Shown here in pieces: positions 7,051 through 22,800 of a DNA stretch of 28,234 bases (its first letter is position 1; each line of letters opens with the position of its first letter). The DNA is from a virus. The DNA is taken from IMG/VR virus record IMGVR_UViG_3300036835_000224, positions 1 to 28,234 of that record; one strand, 5' to 3'. Below the pieces are notes generated by a model. The model saw only the letters and a list, made by a program, of their open reading frames with translations. It did not search any database and was not told the origin of the DNA. A program made the position numbers and the translations under genes.

Positions 7051-10000
7051 GGGCGCCCCTGCGGACGTGGCCGCGGCTCTTCGCCCGCTTCACGATCTGG
7101 TTCTCGAGCGCCCCCACATCCGGTGCGGAGGAGTGGAAATGCTCGATGTGGATCGATGTTCCGCCGGCCATGCCGGCGGTGAACTGGCCGGGCCGGCCGG
7201 CGGGAAGGGTCATGCCGGGGCCGGCCATCGCCAGGCCGAGCTCGAGCCGCCGTTTCTGCGCAAGGGTGAGGCCCTGCCCGAACGTGTTCACGAACGTGGA
7301 TGCGGAGACGCGTTTGAACCGTTGCAGCGTCTTGTCGGAGCGGCCCTTCAGCGCCGAGTCGATCGTGTTGAAGTACTGGTCGATCGCGGCCCTGGCCGCC
7401 GGGCTGCCGCTGAGGATCGCATCAGCGAGCACTTTCCCGATCCCCTTGAACCGCGCCGCCACCTTCCCGGCGTTCAGGCCGGTGCCGACCAGCCCGACAT
7501 CCTTTATCAGCTGTTTCAGGTGCTCGAACCGGGCCCGGAGCGCTTTCACCCCCGGGGTGGGCTCCTGCCCTTCTGCGGTTAGTCCCATCGCACGGAAGGC
7601 CATCGCATCGCGGATCTGCTGCTGAAGCTGGAGGATCTGCAACCTGACCTGCGGCGACGCCGACTTCAGCCCGTTCTTTATCGCTTCGGCGAGGCTGACG
7701 GTGCCCTGGTGGGTGAGCTTCTCGATCCGGTCTTTGTTGCGGGCGAAATAGGCGGCGAGGTTCTGGAGCAGGATCGGTTCGCCCCGGTCGCTGAGAACAG
7801 GGATCGCCCGCTGGAACGCGCCGGCCTGGCGGAGCATCACGGTCAACTGGTCTTGGAGGGCTCGGACATCGTCGGCCGTGCTCGTGGTGAGCTGCGCGAT
7901 CTGGACGGAGGCGGCGGCGTTCGCGAGTGCTTCCTGCCTGGCCTGCTCGAGTACCTGCTGGCGCTCCTGCGCGGCCTGCTGCGCGGCCTGCCGAGCGGCC
8001 TGGGCGGCCTGGCGATGCTGTTGCGCGATCTGGTCGCGATAACCCTTGACGGTGAGCATGGCCGCGACGATGTCGGACTCGGCCGCACCGGTCTTCTTCA
8101 GCACCGCGACCTGCTTTATGGCGGCGGCGAGGTTGTCATTGAGGCTGTCGGTCAGATCGGCCCGTTGCAGCGCAAGGCTGGCCGCGTCAATCTTCGCTTG
8201 CCTGGCGGCGTCGCTGCGCTGCTTGAGCGTGTCCTTGACGGCCTGTTCCGCGTCAAACAGTTGCCGTTGCAGACCGACGTTATTCTTGTCGGCCGCAAGC
8301 TGCTTCTTCAGGATCTCGACAAGCCGCTGCTCGGTGGCGAGATCATCCTCAAAGCTAGGGGTTGCTTGCGCCCGGGCGATAGCGAGCTGTGCCTGGTCGA
8401 TCTGCGCCTGCCGGGCGAGCGCCACCCGCTGAGCCGCATCGTCGGCTGCCTGTGTCGCGTTCGCGATCTGCTGGGCGCTCGTGGAGCGAGCCGTCCGCTG
8501 CACCTCGGCCAGCTTGTCCTCGAGGGTGTGCCTGCGGGTGATGTCCTTAGTGATGTCGATCCGCTGCTGGAGCAGCCCGGCGATCTCCTTCAACCGTGCG
8601 ATCTGACCTTGCAGAGTCGGGATGTCCTGCACCTGGCCGATCGCTCGGTTGATCATGTTGTCGAACCAGGTGTTCCGCTGGCCGACGGTGGCGCCGGCGC
8701 GCGGTGCGGGCGGGATCGGCGGCTCCGCGGTGGTCGAGGCGACGGCGCCGCGGATCGTGTCGGGGATGTCCTTGCCGCCCTGGTCGATCCCGAGCTTGAT
8801 CCCGTCGGTGAGCCAGCCGCCGATCTGTTGGCCGGCGTCGGTGGCCGGTTTCTGGAGGCTGTCGAGCTCCCTGTTCAGCGAGTCCTTCAGCTTCCGGGCG
8901 AGGTCGCCGGCCTTCCCGAGCAGCGGGATGCCGCCGGGGATCTTGGTGAACGGCTCGAGGATCTTGAGGATGATCTGGATCGCCTTCTTCTCGAGGAACT
9001 GGCCGGCGGCGTCGAGGCCGGAGCCGATCCCGCTCATGATCAGCCGGGCGAGCTCGGTGCCGGCGCCGACCACGATTCCGCGGAGCGCCTGCAGCTCGGC
9101 GAGCCACAGCCGGATGATCGCGGGGATCGCCTTCTTGAAGAAGTTGGCCGCGAACACGGTCAGCGCGCCGAGTCCGATCAGGATCCCGTCGATCACCGCC
9201 TTCCCGACCCGGTTCCAGTTGACCGACTTCACGAATCGGGTAACCGCGTTCTCGATGCCGGCGAACTTGCGGCCGATGGTTGTGCCGAGCGTGGCCCAGT
9301 CGACAGCGGCGAACGCAGCCACGAGCGCGTCGAGCGCTGCCGTCGCGATCCGCTGCGTGTTCGCCCACACCCGGTCCCAGTTGATCTGGTTGAACGCGTC
9401 CCGGAGCTGGTTGAACGCGGACACCGCGACGTCGCGGATCCCGTCCCAGACGACGAGCAGCTTCGCGTGGACGGTCCGGGCCCGGGACAGCCTGCCGATG
9501 AACTGGTTCACACCCTCGAGCGCGCGGGCGAAGGCGGGCGCGACGGCGCCGACGAGGGAGCCGCCGAGGTTCCGGAACGACTCCCGGATCCGGTTGATCT
9601 CGCCGGGGATCGACCGGCCCATTTCCCGGGCGGACCCGCCGAACTCCTTGGTCAGCTCGGCGAGGATCACGCGTTGCGCGTCGATGGTGTCACCGACCCG
9701 GGTGAACCCTTTGATCTGCGCAATCTGCGACTTGGTGAACTGGACGCCGATCCGTTGCAGCCGGGTGTAGCCGCGGATCGGGTCGTTCAGCGCCTTGCCG
9801 ACCTGGAGCGCCGCCGACGACATCTGGTCCATGCTCGGCGCCGCCCCCTTGTTCATCCGGGTCGCGAGGTCTGCGACGGCGGTGGTGGCCTGGTTGAAGA
9901 TGTCGTTGCCGGCGCCGACCCGGTTCTGCACCCTGGTGAAGGTGAGCAGCATGTTCTCGCCGGCCTGGACGGCCTCGTCGTCGATCCCCGAGTAGTTCGA

Positions 10001-11715: not shown

Positions 11716-12378
11716 TCATGCTCCTTTCATGGGTGCGAGAGCGGCCAGCTCCCGCATCGTTTCGACGCGCCACTCGACGGGGCTGCCCGGCCCGACATGG
11801 ACGAACCTGGGGGAAATCGCGGGCTCGTCCGTATCGTCGGGCGGGTACTGCAGATGGAGGGCGTTCCATTCCTCGCCGAGCCAGTGCGTGTTCAGATACA
11901 GCTCGGTGGGCTGGATCAGCCGGCACGGCGGCGGGTCCGCCCGGTAGCCGAGCAGCTGCAGGAACGCGGCCTGCTCCCACCAGCGGTGATGCAGGTACCT
12001 GGTCAGCGTCCAGGCTTTTTCGATCCACGGTCGCATCGGCCGGCGGACGTACCAGACGCCGACGGACGGGACTTCGCCCTCGCGGGTGTGGTGGCGGGTG
12101 ATCGCCTGCCACGCCCCGTCGTCGACCTCGTCGGCGAGATCCCGGGTGTCGTCGAGGATCAGAACGTCCGCGTCGACCCACAGGACTTCCTGGTGGGTGT
12201 CGAGCGCGTGGAGGACGCATGTGATCTTGTGCCACGACGCCGGCCGTAGGATCATCCTCGGCGGGGCGGTGACGAGGTCGTAGCCGTGCCAGTCCGCGTA
12301 CCGCTCCATCGCCGGCAACGCGTGCTCGAGCAGCGGCGTGTGCGACCCGACCGCGAACGTGACCAGCGCGCGCCTCAC
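11716..12378 (-). CDS. Glycosyltransferase, GT34-like (DxD type)
   Basis: 220 residues from GTG 12378, overlapping the upstream stop (GTGA). Motifs: an early strand RRALVTFAVG, the metal and nucleotide-sugar motif WVDADVLILDD with Asp69 and Asp71, and RWWEQAAFLQLL, the WEQ motif found in GT34 galactosyltransferase-like enzymes. It should transfer a sugar from a nucleotide sugar; acceptor and sugar are unknown. It stands between a GT4 enzyme and the tail tube gene in the virion operon, which suggests that capsid or tail proteins, or the host surface, are glycosylated late in infection. Confidence 0.8.
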   Translation of the reverse strand: MRRALVTFAVGSHTPLLEHALPAMERYADWHGYDLVTAPPRMILRPASWHKITCVLHALDTHQEVLWVDADVLILDDTRDLADEVDDGAWQAITRHHTREGEVPSVGVWYVRRPMRPWIEKAWTLTRYLHHRWWEQAAFLQLLGYRADPPPCRLIQPTELYLNTHWLGEEWNALHLQYPPDDTDEPAISPRFVHVGPGSPVEWRVETMRELAALAPMKGA

Positions 12379-13535
12379 GCGGCCAGCTCCTGCGGCTCGG
12401 CAAGCTTCTGGAGGGCGGGTTTCCAGTACCTGTCGGTGACCTGGTCGGCGTCGTAGGCGCGCGCGAACTCCGCCGCCGCCGCTCTGAGCTCCATGTCCTC
12501 GCGCGCCGCGTACGCGGCCTCCAGGGCGGCGACGATCCCGTCCACGGACGGGACGATGAAGAAGCTCTCCTGCAATGCGTCCCACCACGGGTCGCCTTGC
12601 ACGAGCCACCCGATCTCGGCGAGCTCGGTCATCGACGAGTGGTCGGACGCGATCACCGGCACCCCGCTCGCCTGCGCCTCCAGCAGAGGGATCCCGAACC
12701 CCTCGCCCATGCTCGGCATCAGCAGCACGTCGAACGCCTGGTACATGCACGCGACCGCCTGGCTGGGGATGCCGAGCTGCCAGGCTTCCTGATGCGGGAA
12801 CCGGAGCCGGCCGGCCGGGCACCGGACGGCTTCGGCGAGGACGTCGAGGTTGATGCCGCCGCCGGTCGGCGGCTTCGCCATCGTGTGCACGTACATCCAC
12901 ACGTCCTGGTATTTGCGGGCGAGCCGGGAGAACGCGAGGAACGCCTGCGGGAACGCCTTCCGCGGCAGGGACGGGTTGCCGGTGTTCGCGGCCACCATCC
13001 CGATCAGGAACACGTCACGGGGGATCTCGAGCTCGTCCCGCACCAGCTCGCGGATCTCCGGCTGCGGCCGGAACTTGCCGGTGTCGATCCCGTGCGGCAC
13101 ATAGACCGGGTCGAGGCCGGCTTCGGCCATCAGCTGCTCCCCGAACCGCGACATCGCGACCGGCTGCACCCGGTCGTGCTGGAGGACGGCGAGCACCGCG
13201 GGCGGGATCGGGTAGTGGTCGACAGGTGTCCACACCGCTGCCCGGAGGCCTTCCGGCCACACGTCGGGTTTCAGCACCCACGCGTCACACAAGGCGATCG
13301 CCTGGTCGGCGCGGTGCTGGTCCGCGAACACACCCAGGTTGATGTTCCCCCACTGCCCGTCGGAGGGGTAGCAGACCGTGCTGTTCCAGTTCGTCTCCCG
13401 CCCCTGCAGCCCGTAGTTGCACAGCACCGCGACCTGGTGGCCGAGCGCGCGGAGGCGGGGCACGTACAGGGCGGTCTGCTCGCCGTACCCGGACGGCGCC
13501 CACGGGGCGTTCGATAGCCACAGGATCCGGCTCAC
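12375..13535 (-). CDS. Glycosyltransferase, GT4 family
   Basis: 386 residues with the two Rossmann halves of a GT-B enzyme. The N-terminus has RILWLSNAPWAPSGYGEQ and an Arg-Ala-Leu-Gly-His stretch; the middle has PHGIDTGKF; the C-terminal half has PRKAFP (Arg192, Lys193) and EGFGIPLLE at 278-286, the E-x7-E motif that binds the nucleotide-sugar donor, followed by ASGVPVIAS. The GTG at 13535 overlaps the neck-protein stop. It is a retaining-type enzyme by family. With the GT34-like gene it forms a coupled two-gene insert inside the head-tail joining block. Confidence 0.9.
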   Translation of the reverse strand: MSRILWLSNAPWAPSGYGEQTALYVPRLRALGHQVAVLCNYGLQGRETNWNSTVCYPSDGQWGNINLGVFADQHRADQAIALCDAWVLKPDVWPEGLRAAVWTPVDHYPIPPAVLAVLQHDRVQPVAMSRFGEQLMAEAGLDPVYVPHGIDTGKFRPQPEIRELVRDELEIPRDVFLIGMVAANTGNPSLPRKAFPQAFLAFSRLARKYQDVWMYVHTMAKPPTGGGINLDVLAEAVRCPAGRLRFPHQEAWQLGIPSQAVACMYQAFDVLLMPSMGEGFGIPLLEAQASGVPVIASDHSSMTELAEIGWLVQGDPWWDALQESFFIVPSVDGIVAALEAAYAAREDMELRAAAAEFARAYDADQVTDRYWKPALQKLAEPQELAA

Positions 13536-13975
13536 AGCACCATCCGGATCCGCCACTCCGCGCCGAACAGCGTGATGCCGGTCTCCGAGTACAGGGTCTG
13601 CCCGGACGGGCTCAGCGGCTCGATCTGGACGTCGTCGACCGTCCCCTGCAGGGTGCGGTCGGACTCGATCACCGCCCGCAGCGACGAGTCCATCCGCGGG
13701 TCGATCAGCCCGAGCAGCAGCTGCTGCGCCGCGGTGTTGTCCACGGTGCCGACCCGGGCCCGGACGACCCACAGCGCCTCCCAGCTGCGGCCGCCCTGCC
13801 CGGTCCGCTCGAGACACGGCGTGTCCGGGTACATGTCGATCGTGGGCGGGGTCGGGTTCGCGACCCGGATCGGCTCCACCTGGATCCCGTCCATCCCCGC
13901 CGGCAGCACGGTCAGGCCGGCGCGGAGCTGGTCGGCGAGCGCCTCCGTGATCTCCACCAAAGAGGCCTCCGCCAC
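13532..13975 (-). CDS. Neck / tail terminator-like protein
   Basis: 147 residues from GTG 13975. It has an N-terminal helix (ITEALADQLRAGL), a central YPDTPCLERTGQGGRSWEALWVVRARVG and an IRVANPTPPTIDMYPD segment that recall small tail-terminator or head-closure proteins of siphoviruses. It follows the connector after 1 base and precedes the glycosyltransferases. The position between connector and tail tube supports a role at the head-tail joint, but which ring it forms is not certain. Confidence 0.6.
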   Translation of the reverse strand: MAEASLVEITEALADQLRAGLTVLPAGMDGIQVEPIRVANPTPPTIDMYPDTPCLERTGQGGRSWEALWVVRARVGTVDNTAAQQLLLGLIDPRMDSSLRAVIESDRTLQGTVDDVQIEPLSPSGQTLYSETGITLFGAEWRIRMVL

Positions 13976-19478: not shown

Positions 19479-19779
19479 GGATCGCTCCCCACCGGGCCGG
19501 ATCAGCCCGAAAGCGATTCGTCAGCGAGCCATTCCCGACTGCGGGGGTCACGCCGCGCGCGCCGCTTAAAAACCGGGCCGCTTCCGCGCCGCGCCGGCTG
19601 TTGCAGCGGTGGCAACAGGCGACGAGGTTAGCAGGGTTGAACGCGGCGCCTCCGTGCGCGAGCGGCTTCACATGGTCGACGGTGTTTGCACGCTGCCCGC
19701 ACCAGTGGCACCGGTACCCGTCACGCTCGAGCACGAGCGGGCGGGTGCGTTGCCACATCTGGGTGCCGTACACCCTCAC
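19471..19779 (-). CDS. HNH endonuclease next to the terminase
   Basis: 102 residues from GTG 19779, overlapping the fibre stop. It has two zinc-knuckle pairs (CHWCG and CCHRCN) around the HNH core [12 protein letters not shown] and NPANLVACC, all expected residues present. Small HNH proteins beside TerL are needed for cos cleavage and packaging in HK97-like and many Gram-positive phages, and this position supports the same role here. Confidence 0.9.
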
Positions 19780-21128
19780 GTGATCGTCCGGTAGCGGAGG
19801 ACGGACCCGGTGTACACGACTGTCGGGGAGCCGGCGGTGGTGGTGTTCTGCGCCCACCGGAACTTGAGCAGGCCGCCGTTGCCGACATGGTGGCCGACCG
19901 CGCGCACGACCCGTTTCGCCGCCTGGGTGCCGAACGTGGCGGTCGCTCCGCCGATGTCGGTCGTTGTCAGCGACTGGGCGGCGTCCGTCGTCGAGAGCCC
20001 GATCCACATGCACGACCCGCGCGCGGTTGTGTCTTCGCTCAGCTCGCATTTGAGGTCGGGTGTGCCGGCGCCGGCCGGGGAGGCGTAGACGGCGACCAGC
20101 TCGATCTCGTACGGGATGCCGGCGGCGGCCGTGAACTGGAGCTGGTCGTCGTCCTGGATCGTGTTGTTCGCGACCGACTCGTCGGCGCTCTTGCGGATCA
20201 CGGTCCAGCCGCCGGTGTCGTTCGCCCAGATCGTGGCGTAGTCGGCGCCGCTCGACTTCACGAGCTGCTGCCCGGCGGTCCCGGCGGCCGGGACACCGGG
20301 GCCGGCCGGGCCTTGCGCACCGGCTGCGCCTTGCGGGCCTTGCGCGCCTGTTGCACCGGTCGCCCCGGCTGGGCCTGCCGGGCCCTGGATCCCCTGTGCG
20401 CCCTGGGTGCCTTGCTGTCCGGCGGGGCCTTGCGGGCCTGCCGGGCCGATCGGCCCCTGGTCGCCCTGCGGGCCGGGTGGGCCCGGGTCGCCTTGCGGGC
20501 CCGGGTCGCCTTGCGGACCGGGCGGGCCGGCTGTGCCGCCGCCGGCTGAGGCGGGCCGTTCGAACGCGACGAGAACGGGGACGCCCTGGCCGGGCTCGGT
20601 TCCTTGCGGGCTGCCGTCCTCCGTTTCGACCGGGATCACCCAGGTCGTGTCGTTCTGGGCGGGTGTGCCGGTGACGCGGTAGCGGTGCCAGCTTTCGGCG
20701 TCGTTCCGCTGCTGCAGGTAGATGGTGCTTCGGTCGCTCAGCTGGGCGATGTAGGCGGACCAGTCGACGGAGTGGTTGTCGATCTTCTGCACCCACAGCT
20801 GAGTGGCGTGGGAGGGCTGGTCGTTGTCCACACCGATCTTTCCGTTCTGCCCGAACGGGGCGGTCGTCGGCGCGGTTTGCCAGTTCCAGTCGGACGACTG
20901 GGTGGATCCGGCGTCGCCGCCGAGGCCGGCCTCCTGCGCCCAGTCCCGGATCTGGTTGTACAGCTCCTGGTCGGCGCCGAGCGGGATATGGACGCGGTCC
21001 TCGTCGTCGTCGGTCGGGGCCGGTGCGACGGCTTCTTGGGCGCTCCTCGCTTGGGCGGCGAGCTCGGCGTCGATCGTGCCGCTCGTGCGGCGTTCCGCGT
21101 ACGTCGTCGGGCCGGCCGTCTCGGTCAC
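19776..21128 (-). CDS. Large collagen-like fibre protein upstream of the terminase
   Basis: 450 residues from GTG 21128, overlapping the upstream stop. The first 190 residues are acidic then globular ([38 protein letters not shown]). Residues 201-279 are uninterrupted Gly-X-Y repeats ([16 protein letters not shown] and on). [21 protein letters not shown] linker, as in the tail fibre at 3952-5073, leads to a C-terminal beta domain of about 145 residues with a jelly-roll-like pattern. It should form a trimeric fibre. The location before HNH-TerL, far from the tail genes, suggests a head fibre or a displaced adsorption fibre. Confidence 0.8.
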
Positions 21129-21307
21129 TCGTCGTCGCCGTCGCCGCCGTTGTCGGGCTCGTCCGGCTCCGGCTGGGTCGGTTCGGGCTCCGGGGTGCCC
21201 GTCGTCTGCTTGCGGGCGCTGCGGTTGCTCGAGCGCTTCACTTTCGGCTCCTCCTTGATCGGTGCACGGAACTCGCGGGCGTTGAGTCTGTCGCGGTAAT
21301 GCGTCAC
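21125..21307 (-). CDS. Small charged protein (60 aa)
   Basis: From GTG 21307. The first 35 residues are basic ([21 protein letters not shown]), the rest is Pro/Glu/Asp-rich and probably disordered, ending GGDGDDE. It overlaps the fibre start by 4 bp and is probably co-translated with it. The basic head and acidic tail might bind DNA or a partner; no family is recognised. Confidence 0.55.
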
Positions 21308-21344
21308 GCTTGCCTCGCTTTCGCCGGGTTTGCAAGCGCATTCG

Positions 21345-21569: not shown

Positions 21570-22064
21570 TCACGGCCGAAAGCTCGCGGTGTACGTCTTG
21601 ATCGTCTCGAGCGTGACGTAGTCCAGATGCTCTTCGACGGTCTGGTCGGGCTTTCGGTAGGCGCCTGCGTTCTGTCGCGGCTGCGGCTTGTCTGGTTCAA
21701 GTCGGGGTTGGTCAACACTCTGTTTTAGAGAACTTCCAGAGTAACAGAGTGTTTTTGCTAGCAAGTTGCTAGCAGAGAAGCCCACCAAACCCGCATGGTT
21801 GAGCGAAGCGAGGTGCTTCAAGTCTGCATCAAGTCTGCCGCAAGTCTGTAGTAAGTCCCGGATGTCGCCCACCTGGATCTGCCCGTCTGTTTCGGCGTAA
21901 GCGAGCCAGATGCCGTGCAGAAGCCCGCGCGCTGGCAGGGGCAGGTGGAGGTATTCGGGCTTGTGGAGCAGCGCCCGGTAGTTCTTGATCCAGGGCGGGT
22001 TGCGGTGCTTGTAATGCTGGAACCGTTCCCAGTTCGGGACGGTGATCCAGTCGGTGCTGTTCAC
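21570..22064 (-). CDS. Replication initiator-like protein, with embedded origin-like repeats
   Basis: 164 residues from GTG 22064, overlapping the RecT stop. The N-terminal 95 residues (DWITVPNWERFQHYKHRNPP, WIKNYRALL, LPLPARGLLHGIWLAYAE, then ASLNHAGLVGFSAS) match the winged-helix-like N-terminus of phage proteins encoded beside recombination genes and generally taken as replication initiators. The C-terminal 60 residues are polar and low in complexity. Its gene contains four 11-bp iterons (21818-21861) and an AT-rich stretch with palindromes (21714-21780), so it could bind inside its own gene, as lambda O does. The function is inferred from pattern and context. Confidence 0.65.
   Translation of the reverse strand: MNSTDWITVPNWERFQHYKHRNPPWIKNYRALLHKPEYLHLPLPARGLLHGIWLAYAETDGQIQVGDIRDLLQTCGRLDADLKHLASLNHAGLVGFSASNLLAKTLCYSGSSLKQSVDQPRLEPDKPQPRQNAGAYRKPDQTVEEHLDYVTLETIKTYTASFRP
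21714..21753. repeat. Perfect 11-bp inverted repeat in AT-rich stretch
   Basis: AACACTCTGTT at 21714-21724 and AACAGAGTGTT at 21743-21753 are exact reverse complements separated by 18 bases. Bases 21714-21780 are about 40% G+C by my count (27 of 67), far below the surroundings. It lies in the 3' half of the initiator-like gene and may be part of a duplex-unwinding region. Confidence 0.75.
21756..21774. repeat. Two TGCTAGCA palindromes
   Basis: The 8-bp palindrome TGCTAGCA occurs at 21756-21763 and 21767-21774, separated by AGT, so the repeat period is 11 bp, the same as the iterons nearby. They sit next to the inverted repeat in the AT-rich segment. Confidence 0.7.
21818..21861. repeat. Four tandem 11-bp iterons (candidate origin)
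   Basis: Units start at 21818, 21829, 21840 and 21851. The first three share CAAGTCTG, the fourth only TAAGTC. The 11-bp period is not a multiple of three, so the protein encoded here is not repetitive; selection on DNA is the simplest reason for the repeat. Spacing is one helical turn, which would place binding sites on one face of the DNA. Confidence 0.75.
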
Positions 22065-22654
22065 GGCTCGGCCTCGACCTGGTGGGCGTCGAGCTGCTCG
22101 ACGATCTCCTGCTCGACGGCCGCGGCCTGGTCGTGCCACGGGAACTCCTCGACGTCTTCGGCGCCAAGCTCGTCAGGGATGTAGATCCGGCCCATGGCGA
22201 CGTCGGGGCAGTGCCAGGCCATCCCGTTCGTCATCGCCCGGGCGAACAGCATGTTGCGGGGGTACTGCGTCCAATTGCCTTTGTTCAGGAGCTGCGCGGT
22301 CCTGGCGTCTTCGATCGTGAACTCGGAGTCGGGACGAAGCTGTTCGCCGCGGTCGTAGAACCTGATCACGCACTTGTCCGGGGTGAGCTCGACGATCCGG
22401 TAGTCGTACCGGCCGCTGGCTCTCACCAGTGCCGCGCAGGCGCCGGCGCCGAGGCCGGGTTTCCCGTCGATCACGTGCACCTCGTTCATCGCGAGCAGCG
22501 GCGGGATGCCGAGCGACGCGCCGGCCTCGATCTTGACGAGCGCCTGGGCGAGTTTCATCCCTTCCCACCAGCCTGATTCGGCGTACGCTTTCGCACGTCG
22601 CTGGTTGAGCTCGAACTCCTGGAGCGGCGGCAGTTTCGCTATCTCGAGTGTCAT
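22061..22654 (-). CDS. recT: RecT-family single-strand annealing protein
   Basis: 197 residues. The core has the RecT-like pattern WWEGMKLAQALVKIEAGASL, GIPPLLAMNEVHVIDGKPGL, ALVRASGRYDYRIVEL, TIEDARTAQLL, GNWTQYPRNMLFARAMTNG. It should anneal single strands and promote strand exchange during phage replication or repair. The ATG at 22654 overlaps the 49-residue gene stop (ATGA) and has AAAGGA upstream, so it is preferred to an upstream GTG at 22690. No partner exonuclease of the RecE or YqaJ type is visible nearby. Confidence 0.85.
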   Translation of the reverse strand: MTLEIAKLPPLQEFELNQRRAKAYAESGWWEGMKLAQALVKIEAGASLGIPPLLAMNEVHVIDGKPGLGAGACAALVRASGRYDYRIVELTPDKCVIRFYDRGEQLRPDSEFTIEDARTAQLLNKGNWTQYPRNMLFARAMTNGMAWHCPDVAMGRIYIPDELGAEDVEEFPWHDQAAAVEQEIVEQLDAHQVEAEP

Positions 22655-22800
22655 CGTTTGGTCGGTCCTTTCGTTGCGCGCTGTTTCCACAACTCGGCGC
22701 GGTGTTTTTGCCGGGTCAGGCGCCGGCGGAGACGCCGGAGCTCCGTCTCGAGAGCGGTGATCCGGTCGACGAGATGCTGGTTCCAGCGTTCAGCCGGCAT
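22651..22800 (-). CDS. Small coiled-coil protein before RecT (49 aa)
   Basis: MPAERWNQHLVDRITALETE then a strongly basic helix (LRRLRRRLTRQKHRAELWKQ) and a Lys-rich end. Its ATG at 22800 overlaps the upstream gene by 11 bp and its stop overlaps the RecT start, so it lies in a coupled series. Leu/Ile spacing in the first half suggests a short coiled coil. Possibly a DNA-binding or RecT-partner peptide; no family is known to me. Confidence 0.55.
   Translation of the reverse strand: MPAERWNQHLVDRITALETELRRLRRRLTRQKHRAELWKQRATKGPTKR

Follow-up and report, generated by a model that had tools for sequence, protein, structure and literature searches.

The DNA analysed here (hereafter, the window) is a 28,234-base IMG/VR virus record of a tailed temperate phage, in which integrase, RecT, terminase, portal, capsid and tail genes are recognisable, together with a glycosyltransferase-like gene between the capsid and tail genes (12375-13817, minus strand; PHROG 2170, E=2e-35). 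The segment of interest lies within a minus-strand gene for a 164-aa protein (21570-22064), whose GTG start codon overlaps the stop codon (GTGA) of the gene directly upstream, which encodes a RecT-like single-strand annealing protein (22061-22690, minus strand; PHROG 561, E=1.9e-25). Residues 9-62 of the translated 164-aa protein match PHROG 26426, 'replication protein' (E=4e-5), and its significant viral fold matches include gp04 of phage PhiPLPE, a putative replication protein (E=9e-5); that is, the N-terminal domain resembles the PHROG 26426/PhiPLPE gp04 type in both sequence and structure. The AlphaFold model, built from an alignment that left out rows from cultured-phage records, is of high confidence over the first ~105 residues, save for a short dip, and poor beyond. 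The protein has no match in Pfam or NCBIfam and none to the lambda O family, the homology expected of a lambda-type initiator. A PDB sequence search with the family profile returned nothing significant, and in a PDB fold search (Foldseek) the top matches included winged-helix and plasmid RepA entries (4pta, 4pt7, 4pql and 5kbj) at E values of about 1, which are not significant; with no Pfam match either, the protein cannot be assigned to the RepA_N domain (PF06970). The family to which the gene belongs is broad, Pfam-less and annotated as phage replication protein, and in its cultured members PhiPLPE and Cr-LKS3 the corresponding gene (gp04 and 'replication protein O', respectively) is followed by a gene for a DnaC-like helicase loader in the former and for a replicative helicase in the latter. 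No helicase-loader gene was recognised beside the 164-aa gene in the window. Because the basis is homology and gene neighbourhood, we infer, rather than observe, that the window protein is of the initiator type. A genome scan found only two prophage relatives, one in a metagenome-assembled genome (MAG) labelled Deltaproteobacteria (L176) and one in a Nitrospirales MAG (L177).

Inside this gene, on the minus strand, lies an array of four 11-bp units with the consensus GACTTGNNGCA (21814-21857), the first of them degenerate, in a slot shared with relatives. Three exact copies of CAGACTTG occur on the minus strand of the whole window (21848-21841, 21837-21830 and 21826-21819) and none on the plus strand, a fourth GACTT stands one period before them (21857-21853), and the best register reads GACTTACTACA/GACTTGCGGCA/GACTTGATGCA/GACTTGAAGCA over 21857-21814. 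The first-pass annotation, made from the letters of the window alone, had described three exact units and one degenerate unit at 11-bp spacing in 21818-21861, a description that holds once moved by a few bases. A lambda-type origin has tandem repeats within its initiator gene, as seen here. It is conceivable that such repeats merely reflect the protein, that is, a repetitive or helical peptide with no role for the DNA itself, and amphipathic helices do give rise to a weak period of ~11 bp in coding DNA. However, the period is not a multiple of 3, and successive units are read in different frames; the array score was reached by none of 20,000 codon shuffles and by only two of 20,000 protein-preserving shuffles, and protein-preserving shuffles likewise fall short of the periodicity observed across relatives (below). 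Further, the two versions of the conserved downstream repeat, GCTAGCA and GATATCA (below), encode different peptides at the same place. We thus attach next to no credence to a protein-level origin of the repeats, as the annotation had also argued from the broken reading frame. Only two other tandem arrays in the window score as high, and both have periods divisible by 3 (12 bp at 7964 and 18 bp at 20461); the second is an in-frame repeat (20461-20520) in a tail-fibre gene (19776-21341, minus strand) that is GC-rich and collagen-like.

Further along in the direction of transcription is a block, ATGCGGGTTT (21787-21796, minus strand), whose codons are conserved and which stands exactly 12 nt ahead of the first of two TGCTAGCA palindromes spaced 11 bp apart (21774-21767 and 21763-21756, minus strand, jointly 21756-21774); the palindromes, too, are conserved in relatives. 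They fall within a 67-bp AT-rich stretch, a candidate DNA-unwinding region (21714-21780, no strand assigned), with a G+C content of 40.3% vs. 69.1% for the window, which ties for the lowest of any 67-bp stretch in the window. The same stretch holds a perfect 11-bp inverted repeat, with its left arm AACACTCTGTT at 21743-21753 and its right arm AACAGAGTGTT at 21714-21724 (minus strand); an inverted repeat as long as this arises in 3 of 3000 shuffles of the segment, and it was not found in relatives. The composition and both kinds of palindrome are hence as first described, and an AT-rich tract adjoining the iterons, as in lambda-type origins, is present here and as a dip in GC in relatives as well. 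As a single strand, positions 21705-21780 fold into two hairpins (z -6.2), as would be expected if only the downstream GCTAGC pair mattered, whether its hairpin served in mRNA or, as a primosome or primase site, in single-stranded DNA, and the CAGACTTG repeats were due to chance or slippage. The variant CTCTAGAG-N3-CTCTAGAG of one relative (L007), in which self-pairing is kept and the sequence changed, also fits this explanation. Hairpins, however, would not fix an 11-bp period, and the GCAAGCA that forms the third unit of longer arrays pairs less well with the other units, yet the 11-bp spacing is still kept. In addition, the upstream slot is periodic across the window's clade (below), and no Rfam family matches the segment. 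We consider it very unlikely that hairpin formation accounts for the segment.

The downstream repeats extend far beyond the window: very divergent relatives have GCTAGCA units, spaced at 11 bp, midway along the gene. A scan at the DNA level only, for three GCTAGCA units at 11 bp, retrieved 55 viral contigs, and the genes in which most of these arrays are found share the same N-terminus. With any spacing from 7 to 17 bp allowed, the in-gene arrays had spacings of 11/11 (at least 47), 10/11 (at least 7), 11/10 (at least 1) and 12/12 (at least 2), and no in-gene array with another spacing was among the matches listed, such spacings belonging to ordinary tandem repeats. In the cultured phages PBR31 and DC33, GATATCA units replace GCTAGCA, which predicted a second version of the repeat, and a scan for GATATCA at 11 bp was then made; 67 of 80 arrays taken from a longer list lay in the gene by motif and more did so by eye, all of them on the coding strand, with the qualification, applicable to all in-gene counts here, that genes were recognised by a sequence motif and truncated ones are missed. 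Among non-redundant relatives retrieved by protein, which are mostly uncultured contigs and, being related sequences, not independent of each other, 55 of 72 carry an array (48 of the GCTAGC and seven of the GATATC type); the window carries two units after the domain. Across all sequences, GATATC occurs with FQHF (47/47) and GCTAGC with FQHY (82/84), a pairing that may simply mark clades. Judged by this conservation, TGCTAGCA is a conserved iteron of the wider family and more than melting DNA, at variance with the first-pass annotation, which had taken it as part of the AT-rich melting region only and had thought the arrangement distinct; the layout recurs in numerous phages, unrelated ones among them, with repeat sequences that differ from one to the next, and is not unique to this phage. 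We found no description of 11-bp GCTAGCA or GATATCA arrays in phage initiators in open-access papers.

Several patterns support the conclusion, drawn from aligned relatives, that the 11-bp spacing is kept at the DNA level beyond what the codons demand. The third unit reads GCAAGCA in 45 of 45 in-gene GCTAGCA arrays, where GCTAGCA would create an in-frame TAG stop, and it reads GCTAGCA in 10 of 16 arrays outside the gene; members of the window clade with four units in strict register have GCTATCA or GATATCA as the third. Synonymous sites are constrained in the window clade at GCG GGT and at TCT GCT AGC ... CTA, with alanine encoded by GCG in 16/16, glycine by GGT in 13/16, serine by AGC in 14/14 and leucine by CTA in 10/11 cases. 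Searching IMG/VR for ATGCGGGTTT-N{6,16}-TGCTAGCA returned 31 contigs, in 30 of which the gap is exactly 12 nt; most of these 30 matches were confirmed by motif to be in the gene and the rest look alike by eye, as opposed to the lone gap-9 match, which does not. Loss of the iteron spacing in relatives that keep the protein had been named at the outset as a result that would count against an origin, and the data mostly favour the original proposal in this respect.

The upstream array behaves differently from these conserved units. The closest relatives found (L004 and L176; 60-64% identical) have no CAGACTTG, and alignment with them places a four-residue insertion in the window at the CAGACTTG site; L003/L004 and L176 show no clear upstream array and only one full GCTAGCA unit. 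Nevertheless, the slot just upstream of GCGGGTTT holds a periodic array (p<0.05, codon shuffle) in 20 of 38 window-type genes, and the best period, out of 8-24 tried, is 11 or 22 in 19 of these 20. When 37 non-redundant members were pooled, only lags of 11, 22 and 33 stood out against protein-preserving shuffles (z of 9.2, 6.9 and 5.2, respectively). Such upstream periodicity is absent from the GATATCA family and no more than faint (z below 3) in other GCTAGCA initiators. The repeated unit differs by phage, e.g., GACTTGNNGCA in the window, ATCGGCANNTC in L161, a GCAGAGG-type unit in L184, GTCA in L411 and ACTT in L417. That is, the proposal that the CAGACTTG units are iterons fails at the level of their sequence, which is not conserved, but gains from other window-type relatives, in which the slot is occupied by arrays that share the period and differ in sequence. 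With positions counted from the start of GCGGGTTT, the mean over 37 clade members shows GC dropping from ~0.65 to 0.48 at 70-95 nt and a purine-rich coding strand (0.66-0.67) at 45-95 nt. Most relatives have this purine run after the iterons and the window does not; it has 0.40 GC at 20-70 nt after the GCGGGTTT start and its inverted repeat where relatives have the purine run. Outside the window, IMG/VR yielded just two contigs with triples of CAGACTTG at 11 bp; in one, that of Gordonia phage Lilbeanie, the triple lies inside the replication-initiator gene, which belongs to a different protein family. An 8.4-kb contig (L159) carries, within short open frames, about eight 11-bp units at 1897-1924 (GATCCAGACTT/GATCGGGCTT) that share CAGACTTG with the window. 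We also considered CAGACTTG as a degenerate GCTAGCA, an idea that was dropped for having too few matching positions.

The segment thus combines phased repeats that are confined to one gene family with locally AT-rich DNA, and we consider it probable (roughly 0.8) that it is the replication origin of the phage, lying within the gene that encodes its initiator. The proposal that this gene encodes the initiator and carries the origin is well supported by the gene family, the DNA-level spacing and the anatomy of the segment, although the anatomy differs from the one first proposed. By analogy with lambda and pSK41, an origin of replication is the most likely function. In lambda, ori lies midway along gene O and has four iterons with an AT-rich tract after them (PMC7466680); each iteron is a 19-bp inverted repeat to which an O dimer binds (PMC5043065), O binding opens the adjacent AT-rich tract (PMC5043065, PMC7466680) and, according to work cited in PMC7466680, two iterons beside that tract suffice for unwinding. 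The window likewise has iterons and an AT-rich tract within the initiator gene, with two conserved units beside the AT-rich part. In contrast to lambda, its units recur every 11 bp instead of being ~19 bp long with dyad symmetry, only the GCTAGC units are palindromic, and the protein has no lambda-O match (one member of the wider family matches the PHROG 'O-like' profile, but weakly, with E=0.0096). Hence, the segment would work like a lambda-type origin, yet it is not a member of that class by protein homology or by repeat length. In the rep gene of plasmid pSK41 (RepA_N), four Rep boxes lie centrally and are bound by the N-terminal winged helix, and the linker encoded by the origin is dispensable in the protein (PMC5703833); similarly, the conserved iterons of the window stand at the end of the folded domain, ahead of the poorly ordered tail.

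Phages offer comparisons as well. In some mycobacteriophages, RepA is both necessary and sufficient for a plasmid to replicate, and the origin has been proposed to lie in or beside the gene (PMC7157519). Among RepA-like actinophage initiators (Gordonia phage Lilbeanie, GTE6, prophi62-3), several have RecT a few genes upstream, and Lilbeanie has CAGACTTGGTC three times at 11 bp inside its initiator gene, but these proteins belong to another family (PHROG 1882/2447) and no GCTAGC element was seen. The initiator genes of prophi62-3 (L387), StorminNorm (L388) and RiverRaider (L389) carry 11-, 12- or 24-bp repeats, some palindromic, in a similar place, the gene at 2001-2798 in prophi62-3 having a 12-bp palindromic array. 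The closest parallels are PhiPLPE gp04, Cr-LKS3 g53 and PBR31 orf004, which share the N-terminal domain NW..FQHYK.R.PPWIK with the window protein and have GCTAGCA- or GATATCA-type iterons and a purine run at the same place; they differ in that the phage-specific upstream array was undetected outside the window clade.

Alternatively, the repeats might be an operator or an incompatibility/partition site through which the protein or a phage repressor controls expression or copy number, with replication starting elsewhere. Phased palindromic repeats suit regulators too, and a few GCTAGCA arrays lie outside coding genes. However, like those of lambda O and pSK41 rep, the arrays sit well within the coding sequence of an initiator-type gene, and they are followed on the coding strand by an AT-rich and, in most relatives, purine-rich tract. 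We regard this alternative as unlikely and favor the origin.

Our best reading of that origin is a lambda/RepA_N-like one with single-turn iterons, two-tiered in the window clade, where the order would be phage-specific iterons, an invariant GCGGGTTT...GCTAGC block and an AT-rich (in relatives, purine-rich) opening region. Mechanistically, the N-terminal DNA-binding domain of the initiator would bind the 11-bp units specific to the phage (21857-21814), with each helix turn taking one protomer and all protomers on one face of the DNA; the complex would then spread across the two GCTAGCA units as well as the invariant GCGGGTTT block and bend the DNA, upon which the adjacent AT-rich stretch (21780-21714) would open, the replicative helicase would be loaded and replication would start there. 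More tentatively, and with slightly less than even confidence, we suggest a division of labor in which a fast-evolving, phage-specific 11-bp array, read by the phage's own initiator, sets replication identity or incompatibility, and an invariant GCGGGTTT-GCTAGC block common to all is read by a conserved surface or by a second, perhaps host, factor, both tiers being written in the codons of the initiator. If so, natural variants would provide a readable record of the co-evolution of initiator and iteron, and related initiators, each with its own 11-bp repeat, would constitute a natural experiment from which recognition rules could be derived. A second natural experiment is the conflict between the genetic code and the repeat that selection favors in the DNA, in which GCTAGCA gives way to GCAAGCA or GCTATCA at just the sites where it would introduce a TAG stop. 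Single-turn iterons are also relevant to the stacking of initiators on DNA, given that the iterons of lambda, which have been studied in detail, span about two turns. In practical terms, two simple DNA patterns could locate origins across a large group of phages, most of them uncultured.

Some observations speak against an origin here, namely the weak or missing upstream array and the single full GCTAGCA unit of the closest relatives, the missing purine run in the window and the lack of a recognised neighbouring helicase-loader gene. So does GC skew, which had been suggested as a check and turns in the window at ~19.6 kb, 2 kb away; of five cultured relatives, four have their turning point at 0.3-2 kb from the gene, a proximity confounded with divergent transcription. 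Because the turning points coincide with divergent transcription, we did not use GC skew as evidence of an origin.

Finally, the repeats also occur in other settings. Initiator-like proteins of a different type are encoded with the same repeats at 10-11 bp in three contigs (GCTAGCA in L114 and L151, GATATCA in L295); the L114 protein matches Pfam DUF6291, and the other two proteins look alike by eye. In L034, L037, L047, L058, L072, L083, L085 and L086, 11-bp GCTAGCA arrays, some with at least five units, lie outside long open frames, where they might be origins or operators apart from the initiator gene. Three cultured phages, PhiPLPE (L178; gene 860-1678), L179 and L182, have two more GCTAGCA sites 32 bp (about three turns) apart, at nearly the same positions within the part of the gene that encodes the DNA-binding domain.
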